In this document: positions 3,365-44,727 of the stretch, one piece after another
Layout of the letters: the number at the start of each line of letters is the position of its first letter
Position numbering within the stretch: position 1 is the stretch's first letter
Source of the DNA: Cyanobacterium stanieri PCC 7202
Lineage (GTDB): Bacteria > Cyanobacteriota > Cyanobacteriia > Cyanobacteriales > Cyanobacteriaceae
Assembly: GCA_000317655.1 (NCBI GenBank)
Contig: CP003940.1
Span: 496,001-560,000 of the forward strand
Direction of reading: 5' to 3'
DNA length: 64,000 bases
Position numbers and translations under genes: made by a program
The notes under the pieces: model-generated
The model's database searches: none
What the model was told of the DNA's origin: nothing
The model's input: the letters and a program-made list of their open reading frames with translations, nothing else

Positions 3365-4909
3365 TTAGCGCACCTTCGATAAGATTTGTAAGTGTTGCCA
3401 TATCGAAGCCAGACTGTTAGCCGTAATCATACCACTAGCCGCCACTGCAGGAACACCAATCCCGGGGAAAGTAGAATCCCCACAACAGTATAAATTATCA
3501 ATGGGAGTCGTGGAAGGGGGAAATAACCCCTCATCCGCATTCCAAGCCGCCCCATAGGTGCCTCGATACCGCCTTAAAAACCGTTCATGGGTAAGGGGAG
3601 TACCCACCAAAGTCACCTCACATCTTTCCCTAATATCAGGAATAAATCTCTCCAATGCTGCCCACATAACGTGCGATCGCACCTCCTTCAAATGATGATA
3701 CTCATCACTCTTACGACTCAACCCAGCCCACAAAGAATAAGGCTCCGTAGCAGGGGTATAAACATGAATACAATGTTTACCCTGGGGTGCTAAACTAGGA
3801 TCAAGCAAAGAAGGAATCGACACCGCCACCACATTTTGCTCCGCCCTCACCCCTTTCTGCCAATCATTTACAATCATGTGATGACAAGGCAAATCATCAG
3901 GTAAACCCGCCCCATCAATGCCCAGATGTAAGTGCATAAAACTATCATTCATCGGGGTTTTTTCCACCCCCGTCACAAAATCTTGGGGCAATATACCCTC
4001 CCCAATCAAAGGTAAAGTATCCCAAATCGAAGCATTCGCAATCACCGCCCGACTTGCCCGAATACTTTTCCCATTCCTTAACACTACCCCCACAGCCCGA
4101 TTACTCTCCACCACAATCTCCTGCACATGGCTAGATAACCATAATTGCCCCCCATGCTTTTCCATACCCCTTACCAAAGCCTTAACCATCGCCTCACTAC
4201 CCCCCACAGGATAATCTAAGACCACATCAGGGCGATACCACTCCGCAAACATAAAAGCCATCTCCGCCGCCGAAGTGCCATGGGCAGGTAAACCTGACAA
4301 CATAAAACAAAGTAAATCTAACCAATTACGGATAAACTCATCCGTCACCACCTGATCCATAATTTTGCCAAAACTTCCCGTTAATTTTCCTGCCGAAAAC
4401 ACATAGGGAAGCATAGAAACCGCATAGGGGGCAAGGGTAAAAATTGCTCCCAAATCATAACGAAAAGCCCCCGGAGGAATAGCCGTAGAAGCCACTCCCA
4501 AAGGTTTCATCACCTCCTGTAACCTACGCCATTGCCTCCCTGCCTCCTCTCCCCGTAGCTTGAGTAACAAATCATAAAAATCATCAGCACCCACCGCCAC
4601 ATCAAAATAACCCTCTGGCAACCAACAACCCCAGTTGTTATAATTTTTCCATTCCACATCCTCCCCAATAATATCTAACACCTGACGCAGAGGATTAGTA
4701 GAGGGGGAATAAGATAAACCTGAATATAAAGAAGGGCCCGAATCAAACTTAAAACCCTGATATGTAAAACCATGGGCAGCACCTCCCGGTAAGTTATGAC
4801 TTTCGCAAATAGTGACTCCATAACCATATTTTGCCAACATTGCCCCACAACATAAACCCCCTAAACCACTACCGATAATGACAATATCTGTTTGCTCTTG
4901 GTTCGCCAT
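3365..4909 (-). CDS. Phytoene desaturase/carotenoid isomerase-like FAD oxidoreductase
   Basis: This 514-residue protein belongs to the CrtI/CrtISO-like amine-oxidase-fold flavoproteins. A Rossmann FAD-binding motif (IVIIGSGLGGLCCGAML) occupies residues 9-25. It is followed by the ESHNLPGGAAHGF segment typical of the family and a C-terminal FAD motif around LYCCGDSTFPGIGVPAVAASG. Family members desaturate, isomerise or saturate polyene and retinoid substrates at membranes. The N-terminal region differs from canonical cyanobacterial CrtISO, so this is more likely a paralogue of unknown substrate than crtH itself. It is transcribed away from the ferredoxin gene across a 347 bp gap, and a ferredoxin or quinone partner is plausible but only inferred. 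Confidence 0.7.
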   Translation of the reverse strand: MANQEQTDIVIIGSGLGGLCCGAMLAKYGYGVTICESHNLPGGAAHGFTYQGFKFDSGPSLYSGLSYSPSTNPLRQVLDIIGEDVEWKNYNNWGCWLPEGYFDVAVGADDFYDLLLKLRGEEAGRQWRRLQEVMKPLGVASTAIPPGAFRYDLGAIFTLAPYAVSMLPYVFSAGKLTGSFGKIMDQVVTDEFIRNWLDLLCFMLSGLPAHGTSAAEMAFMFAEWYRPDVVLDYPVGGSEAMVKALVRGMEKHGGQLWLSSHVQEIVVESNRAVGVVLRNGKSIRASRAVIANASIWDTLPLIGEGILPQDFVTGVEKTPMNDSFMHLHLGIDGAGLPDDLPCHHMIVNDWQKGVRAEQNVVAVSIPSLLDPSLAPQGKHCIHVYTPATEPYSLWAGLSRKSDEYHHLKEVRSHVMWAALERFIPDIRERCEVTLVGTPLTHERFLRRYRGTYGAAWNADEGLFPPSTTPIDNLYCCGDSTFPGIGVPAVAASGMITANSLASIWQHLQILSKVR

Positions 4910-36353: not shown

Positions 36354-36442
36354 AAGTGTCTATCTCCTTGAATAAGTTTTATCAGATACACATTCATGAT
36401 AACCAATTTCCCGTCAGGCTACTCTTACCACCATCAATCAAC

Positions 36443-36528
36443 GGAGAGGGGGGGATTCGAACCCCCGAAGGGTGTTACCCCTTAGCAATTTTCGAGACTG
36501 CCGCATTCAACCACTCTGCCACCTCTCC
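36443..36528 (-). tRNA. tRNA-Ser(CGA)
   Basis: On the minus strand the 86 nt fold into a class II tRNA. The acceptor is GGAGAGG/CCTCTCC, the D arm contains AGAGTGGTTGAATG and the anticodon loop CTCGAAA gives anticodon CGA. A long variable arm (GCTAAGGGGTAACACCCTT) and the T arm GGGGGTTCGAATCCCCC complete it. CCA is not encoded. Confidence 0.95.
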
Positions 36529-44033: not shown

Positions 44034-44049
44034 TTAGGCACAAAAAAAG

Positions 44050-44077
44050 ACCCTTGGATATTCCAAGGGTTTTTTTG
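44050..44077 (+). terminator. Bidirectional intrinsic terminator after citrate synthase
   Basis: ACCCTTGGA pairs perfectly with TCCAAGGGT around a TAT loop. A T7 run follows on the plus strand, and an A7 run precedes the stem, which gives a T run on the minus strand as well. It can end both gltA and the minus-strand small unit. Confidence 0.85.
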
Positions 44078-44170
44078 TTTCAGGATTCCCTAAAAGGTAG
44101 AGTGTAACTGCTGGAAGAAACTTTTTCAATAACTCTTAAAATGTACCAATGACCAACTTAGAAATTTATC

Positions 44171-44242
44171 TTAAAGAACAGTTCCAGAACTCAGCTCACC
44201 ATGTCCAGCTAGAGAACCCAAAGTTTTACTACTATCAACCAT
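44171..44242 (-). CDS. 23-residue small protein with strong independent expression signals
   Basis: On the minus strand a perfect AGGAGG (44251-44256) stands 8 nt before an ATG that opens 23 codons: MVDSSKTLGSLAGHGELSSG followed by TVL and TAA. Upstream are a 14 bp inverted repeat and a promoter with an exact TTGACA. Downstream, about 95 bp on, is a bidirectional terminator. The peptide is polar and rich in Gly and Ser, with no membrane helix or cysteine. I recognise no family. The unit could also be an sRNA with an incidental ORF, but the ribosome binding site argues for translation. Confidence 0.45.
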   Translation of the reverse strand: MVDSSKTLGSLAGHGELSSGTVL

Positions 44243-44270
44243 GGGCATCACCTCCTTTCTTCCTGAACGG

Positions 44271-44288
44271 TTAAACTATAAAGTTTAA
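44271..44288. promoter_or_regulatory. Inverted repeat at the start of the small-protein transcript
   Basis: TTAAACT (44271-44277) and AGTTTAA (44282-44288) flank ATAA. It lies at the predicted 5' end of the minus-strand transcript, so it may be an operator or a protective 5' hairpin. Confidence 0.4.
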
Positions 44289-44296
44289 TTGCTAAC

Positions 44297-44326
44297 AATG
44301 TAACATAATCATCTTAAAAGTGTCAA
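44297..44326 (-). promoter_or_regulatory. Predicted sigma-70 promoter of the 23-codon unit
   Basis: On the minus strand TTGACA (44321-44326) and TACATT (44297-44302) are separated by 18 bp. The predicted start is near 44290, giving a leader of about 48 nt. The -35 is perfect; the -10 has two mismatches. Confidence 0.5.
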
Positions 44327-44390: not shown

Positions 44391-44615
44391 TTATCGAGAT
44401 TGATGAACTCTAAAAGCATCAGTATCGTATGCAGGTACCCTCACTAAATAGTCTGTTTCCTGTCCAGTGAATGATTTTGCTAATCTATCAAAACTATCAG
44501 AGTTCCAGTTGCGCTCGTGGATAGGCTTGGTTTGTTCACCCATGAAGTATGCCTGAGTACCAATTAAGGAGGCGGCTAACCAACCGATAACGAATAATGA
44601 TATTAAAATTGCCAT
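44391..44615 (-). CDS. Small single-helix membrane protein, possibly Psb35-related
   Basis: The 74-residue protein has one N-terminal helix (MAILISLFVIGWLAASLIG). A charged soluble tail follows with the conserved-looking TQAYFMGEQTKPIHERNW and a DYLVRVPAYDTDAFRVH end. I recall this pattern from small cyanobacterial proteins attached to photosystem II assembly modules (Psb35-type), but I cannot verify it. The ATG at 44615 is chosen because AGGAG lies 9 nt upstream; a TTG three codons earlier is only 2 nt from it. The gene has its own terminator and is monocistronic. Confidence 0.6.
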   Translation of the reverse strand: MAILISLFVIGWLAASLIGTQAYFMGEQTKPIHERNWNSDSFDRLAKSFTGQETDYLVRVPAYDTDAFRVHQSR

Positions 44616-44727
44616 ATTTTTCAAGCTCCTTTGCTTGACTACATCTCTATATTAACTTATGTAACAATTTATTACAAGGGCTTGACAAAAGAAAAAGGTA
44701 GTGTAATCCGAATGTTTTGATTCGGTC

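Follow-up and report, generated by a model that had tools for sequence, protein, structure and literature searches.

The window analysed here, a stretch of 64,000 nucleotides from Cyanobacterium stanieri PCC 7202, carries a small unit on the minus strand that raises a simple question: is its very short open reading frame (ORF) kept for the peptide, or for something that the RNA does? The initial annotation had taken it for an undescribed gene for a tiny peptide, i.e. for a small independent transcription unit insulated from both neighbours.

The expression signals listed in that annotation (promoter, inverted repeat, AGGAGG, 23-codon ORF, bidirectional terminator) were all found in place in the sequence and by scans. 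The putative promoter, located by a consensus scan, consists of TTGACA (44326-44321) and, after a spacer of 18 nt, TACATT (44302-44297), the span being 44297..44326; it has 10 of the 12 consensus bases, a TG precedes the second hexamer, and the -35 hexamer is exact in three of the five species of the genus. The position of the promoter predicts a transcript start near 44290. Then comes the inverted repeat TTAAACT/AGTTTAA (44288-44271), a possible 5' hairpin that is clear, as judged by eye, in three of the five species; its loop reads TTAT on the transcribed strand, and the ATAA originally given belongs to the other strand. A conserved leader motif, CCGTTCAGG, lies at 44262..44270 and has the family form CCGTTTAGG (columns 5-13 of the family alignment, with the most common base at 0.59 to 0.94). 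The AGGAGG core (44256-44251) does stand 8 nt ahead of the ATG at 44242, but family conservation shows that the ribosome binding site is longer than had been stated and extends over AGAAAGGAGGTGAT (44247..44260). The sequence GGAGGTGATG is near invariant in the alignments of the family, and AAAGGAGGTGATG occurs a single time in the 3.16 Mb genome; it could base-pair with the 3' end of the 16S rRNA over some 12 nt or more, which would be nearly all of the anti-SD end.

The ORF (44242-44171) comprises 23 codons and a TAA stop codon (44173-44171) and would encode MVDSSKTLGSLAGHGELSSGTVL; translation, the relatives and stop avoidance all point to this frame. A terminator scan gave a stem at 44070-44050 with a T run (44042..44070 as a whole), usable on both strands and common to the unit and the convergent gltA gene, and another terminator at 44366-44346, between the unit and the next upstream gene (44391-44624, minus strand). 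With terminators toward both neighbours the small unit is indeed independent. The upstream gene itself matches NCBIfam NF047380, a photosystem II protein, Psb35-related, with an E value of 2.5e-40. We note that a consensus scan alone would not prove the unit real: in the 1.5 kb scanned, 8 promoter-like sites were found against 4.4 expected, and 3 terminator-like sites against 1.3. The stability of the whole window RNA is only mildly unusual in comparison to shuffled sequences (z -2.26).

The window peptide has a single match in its own genome. Of 60 relatives, 10 gave a match (E up to 10), and all four congeners are among these. Two of the 11 loci (L007 and L011) lack the ribosome site and were rejected as chance matches. 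The genuine loci, including those from distant families, have in common a CCGTTCAGG-like leader, GGAGGTGATGCC, the start codon and GATAGTAGTAAA-like codons. Conservation of the ORF and the ribosome site in relatives had been suggested as a check of the unit, and it was borne out: GGAGGTGATGCCCATG is unchanged in the four congeners sampled and is also present in distant cyanobacteria.

An exact pattern search returned at least 116 stretches, and the titles among the 80 matches listed are all cyanobacteria, either named or metagenome-assembled. With up to three mismatches the pattern was found in 212 of the 388 genomes of the class, and a reversed control pattern had no match among the genomes listed. 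A 102 nt sequence profile extended this to 296 of the 388 sampled genomes at E up to 0.01, a threshold at which about four false genomes are expected; on re-examination four profile matches had E above 1e-5 (G179, G240, G320 and G350), and one of these (G350) has no ORF and looks false. Among the matches listed there is one copy per genome, with the exception of G088 and G096, which have two. The occurrence as a single copy in most of the sampled genera (140 of 159), together with the near-invariant ribosome site, leads us to expect a basic role. Almost no profile matches were seen in one large family of small genomes (f34), which are probably picocyanobacteria. Two weakly matching loci of that family (L213 and L214) have, near position 1504, a 17-codon version with a conserved peptide of its own, MSHSC..GLLIAEN.G (E about 3e-4).

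The element is thus real and old, and its family is not new. A small RNA described in 2016, ncl0160, was first identified in Synechocystis and was reported from Synechocystis sp. PCC 6803 and Nostoc sp. PCC 7120 (PMC4734099). According to the available part of that article it has 83 homologs with a conserved ORF of 23-25 amino acids, always preceded by a possible ribosome site; the starts are ATG with a few GTG, and the stops are 47 TAA, 34 TAG and 2 TGA. In our family the stops are 72 TAA, 62 TAG and 1 TGA in 135 distinct ORFs, and a few GTG starts occur among the matches of the mismatch search; the ribosome site is also shared, although in our matches its presence is not independent of the search, being part of the pattern. 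Both families are widespread in cyanobacteria and are autonomous small RNAs. We saw no difference between the two as described, so the window element is very probably ncl0160, matched by description rather than against the published sequences. The claim of an undescribed gene without a known family consequently has to be given up, since the agreement holds at every point that could be checked against the available part of PMC4734099.

That part of the article, which was the sole match of a literature search with subscription journals mostly outside its reach, gives no function for ncl0160. A predicted structure of the Nostoc RNA is shown in its supplementary figure; the covariation between ORF and 3'UTR, the frame-shifted versions and the phhB/porin context (see below) find no mention in the same part. 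In Rfam 15 neither the window element nor 12 relatives had a match at the gathering score, and nine weaker matches (ncr1015, NsiR1, PsrR1 and others) were set aside as they fall below that score and all overlap the terminator. The sole Rfam match of the window at the gathering score is a tRNA gene (36442-36528, minus strand). None of four peptides, one of them a consensus-like string, matched Pfam or NCBIfam at E up to 1, 23 residues being hard for such models.

The analysis of structure and frame was based on 157 loci; L007 and L011 were dropped and L067 is too short for ORF counts, which left 154 loci, 135 of them distinct. The consensus fold of 75 aligned relatives pairs ORF codons 8-23 with the 3'UTR. 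In the window the arms of this predicted stem are at 44174..44219, within the ORF, and at 44083..44123, in the 3'UTR. Alignment A1 holds these 75 of 116 non-redundant sequences and alignment A2 holds 69; of the 41 sequences outside A1 some are without the usual terminator and some are close relatives. Counting all helices, that of the terminator among them, standard pairs make up 93.7% of the 3507 cells, as opposed to 85.2% when partners are shuffled and 30.7-51.3% when slid. Double changes numbered 343, versus 78.0 in the shuffles, and 0 of 500 shuffles were as high; the ORF-3'UTR helices account for 223 of the 343 and the terminator helix for 120. Column shuffling ignores relatedness, so both this test and that for stop avoidance are inflated. 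The 41 left-out relatives gave a similar picture (93.1% paired, 30.6-52.2% when slid, 126 double changes and 95 broken cells), with L101 among them at 50%.

When a structure was derived from 70 sequences outside the genus, the window could form 29 of its 33 pairs and the four congeners 25-29 of 34, whereas the shuffled means were 13.1-14.3 and 0 of 5000 shuffles were as high for any of these sequences; the test is not fully independent, as the alignment itself held the genus. It showed 49 double changes and 32 broken cells. Folded alone, the window RNA has its best structure at -63.4 kcal/mol, in which the outer pairing is partly different from the conserved stem; enforcing that stem gives -53.3, i.e. 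a cost of about 10 kcal/mol, and the inner part is common to both. A local 3'UTR hairpin that would compete with the stem, as in a classical two-state switch, was considered and rejected, its covariation being not above shuffles.

A duplex energy test gave z below -2 in 94 of the 116 sequences of the main set. We also looked at a divergent set of 30 genomes, picked mainly for weak matches, of which 28 were readable; here the test was mostly uninformative, with z below -2 in 4 of 28 loci. One of the divergent loci, L212, has a new ORF sequence and yet a strong duplex (z -7.0). In L205 and L210 the ribosome site and the ORF are kept and the stem is not detectable; these two loci favour the ORF and argue against a reading based on the stem only. 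As judged against the family in its published description, the predicted ORF-3'UTR stem is new.

The reading frame is also well kept. In 130 of the 135 distinct ORFs the length is 23 codons, and in two it is 24. Internal stops were seen 3 times as compared to 20.1 expected from column shuffles, with 0 of 2000 shuffles as low, and when 9,727 triples were drawn at random from the other codons, none reached the depletion of the stops. The codon AGG on its own does reach it, being absent from the ORF frame, with about 11 expected by column shuffling. The clear insertions (L004, L155 and L136-L139) are of three bases each. It is conspicuous that the conservation of the frame is not accompanied by the pattern of an ordinary protein-coding gene, which the nearly equal entropies of the three codon positions do not support (means of 0.60, 0.70 and 0.73 bits for positions 1, 2 and 3). 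In other words, the ORF is open and the stem covaries, and therefore stem and translation look more conserved than the peptide sequence. Homology, frame, stem, terminator and gene context are each supported by comparison among the relatives. The part of the initial annotation that concerned the ORF stands, and the peptide as the relevant product appears doubtful in view of the codon-position entropies and the covariation of the stem.

A true micropeptide gene, in which the roughly 23-residue peptide is functional and the stem only tunes the mRNA, is the best of the other explanations, though we consider it rather unlikely. The kept ORF length and the avoidance of stops are in its favour, and the authors of PMC4734099 judged the ncl0160 ORF "likely translated" (so the available part of the article). 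It could also account for the DSSK residues 3-6, which are nearly invariant and lie outside the stem; the codon choice is kept there too (AGT AGT AAA), which points to the RNA. Against the peptide, codons 2, 7 and 14 are variable at all three positions, and the conserved residues 9-23 sit in the stem and change with it. Amino-acid changes in the stem are often compensated in the 3'UTR; at columns 70/287, for instance, an A-U to U-A exchange replaces Gln by Leu at codon 11 and is a compensated change. Moreover, shortened and frame-shifted versions exist. Three of the four loci titled Thermosynechococcus (L012, L036 and L058) have 17 codons before the stop, whereas the fourth (L041) has the usual 23; in L192 the stop comes after 16. 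In L200 and L206 the CUGUG(C)GCC(G)GG stretch is in another frame, with a stop still nearby. The duplex z values of L192, L200 and L206 are -1.7, -0.1 and 0.5, and the pairing in all three was seen by eye only.

Gene context suggests a second alternative. Of 144 distinct loci, 122 could be used to count downstream neighbours and 84 to count upstream ones. Within 1.5 kb downstream, phhB, the gene of pterin-4a-carbinolamine dehydratase, was found in 57 of the 122 loci, and another 21 had a porin gene but no phhB. In 65 loci the phhB start is a median of 53 nt past the terminator, and 60 nt or less in 37 of them; near-duplicates were kept here and the most upstream start was used, which shortens the distances. 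Translation of the ORF might then control whether transcription passes the terminator and reaches phhB and/or the porin gene, and the window copy would be a displaced relict or have another role. We hold this to be unlikely as an account of the element. Three of the 122 loci have a convergent gltA and 41 have none of phhB, porin or gltA, and there is no supported antiterminator, a single candidate hairpin having been examined. The species of the window's genus have retained the stem without a phhB or porin gene downstream of the element; in the window itself a convergent gltA follows, with no gene in the same direction downstream. The genome does have phhB and six OprB genes, all far from the window, hence a role in cis on them cannot explain the conservation of the window copy. 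On the upstream side psbD was present in 19 of the 84 loci. Several assemblies have a contig end some 300 nt upstream of the element; our guess is that a repeated gene such as psbD may be located there.

It is still less probable that the element acts in trans as an antisense sRNA, with an ORF that is incidental and conserved unpaired stretches that pair with target mRNAs. The autonomous unit with its terminator and the conserved stretches outside the stem are consistent with this, and the family was discovered as an sRNA and received its name as such (available part of PMC4734099). However, a very long ribosome site and the avoidance of stops would not be expected for an incidental ORF. These readings stay open in the order given, i.e. 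micropeptide, cis leader, antisense. A chance ORF with chance signals, for which one can only say that promoter-like sites are common in this AT-rich DNA, is ruled out for practical purposes by the conservation across the class.

We prefer to view the element as a translation-gated regulatory RNA that acts in the window without a downstream gene, and we put the chances of this reading as roughly even, the mechanism being inferred from the conserved features. We placed it slightly lower than we would have otherwise because in the frame-shifted loci the pairing was judged by eye only. The window would hold the genome's only copy of an ancient regulatory RNA of cyanobacteria, made as an autonomous transcript of roughly 250 nt. 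The very strong ribosome site would load ribosomes on the short ORF, the second half of which doubles as the 5' arm of the long putative stem with the 3'UTR. A translating ribosome would open the stem, which could re-form behind it, so that translation might toggle the RNA between open and closed forms. The selected feature would then be the switch and not the exact peptide. In the absence of a downstream gene the window copy may work in trans or through its own level. That the RNA is transcribed and translated in Cyanobacterium stanieri, that it switches and that it acts in trans at all are steps which we infer from sequence. A bolder version of the same idea, which we find possible yet doubtful, is that the element represents a new design of riboregulator. 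In this version the RNA stands alone, its ORF is kept for being translated and at the same time forms one arm of the ORF-3'UTR stem, and the signal would be ribosome traffic (e.g. initiation capacity, sensed through a ribosome site that pairs with almost all of the 16S tail), with the peptide as a by-product that tolerates shortening and frame shifts.

Two kinds of described systems resemble the element. Among dual-function RNAs, SgrS/SgrT and RNAIII are known examples. Norf4 of Synechocystis has been proposed as another (PMC5126843, part available). As far as these descriptions go, the likeness is that one small transcript combines an ORF with structure beyond it; in the window element, unlike in those RNAs, the ORF itself appears to be one arm of the conserved stem. 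The other kind, leader peptides and uORF regulators such as rbfL of Staphylococcus aureus (PMC13009471, part available), is likewise built around a short ORF whose ribosome site is strong or extended. Such ORFs often lie close to a terminator and ahead of a gene, and translation may decide the role of the RNA. In contrast to these, the window element stands alone, its ORF is without a run of codons for one amino acid, and it has no supported antiterminator. A downstream gene in the same direction, as expected of an attenuator, is absent in the window and present in many relatives.

The combination of an ORF-stem architecture with weak constraint on the peptide changes how the element should be tested. 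With the covarying stem, what would be a "conserved peptide" becomes an RNA mechanism that can be tested, and the peptide, the act of translation and the stem are separable by mutation. It is also a warning that conserved residues in tiny ORFs can be the shadow of an RNA structure. Finally, we note that elsewhere in the window, at 4771-4786 on the minus strand, GGAGGTGCTGCCCATG corresponds to the ribosome site and start of the element with one mismatch.
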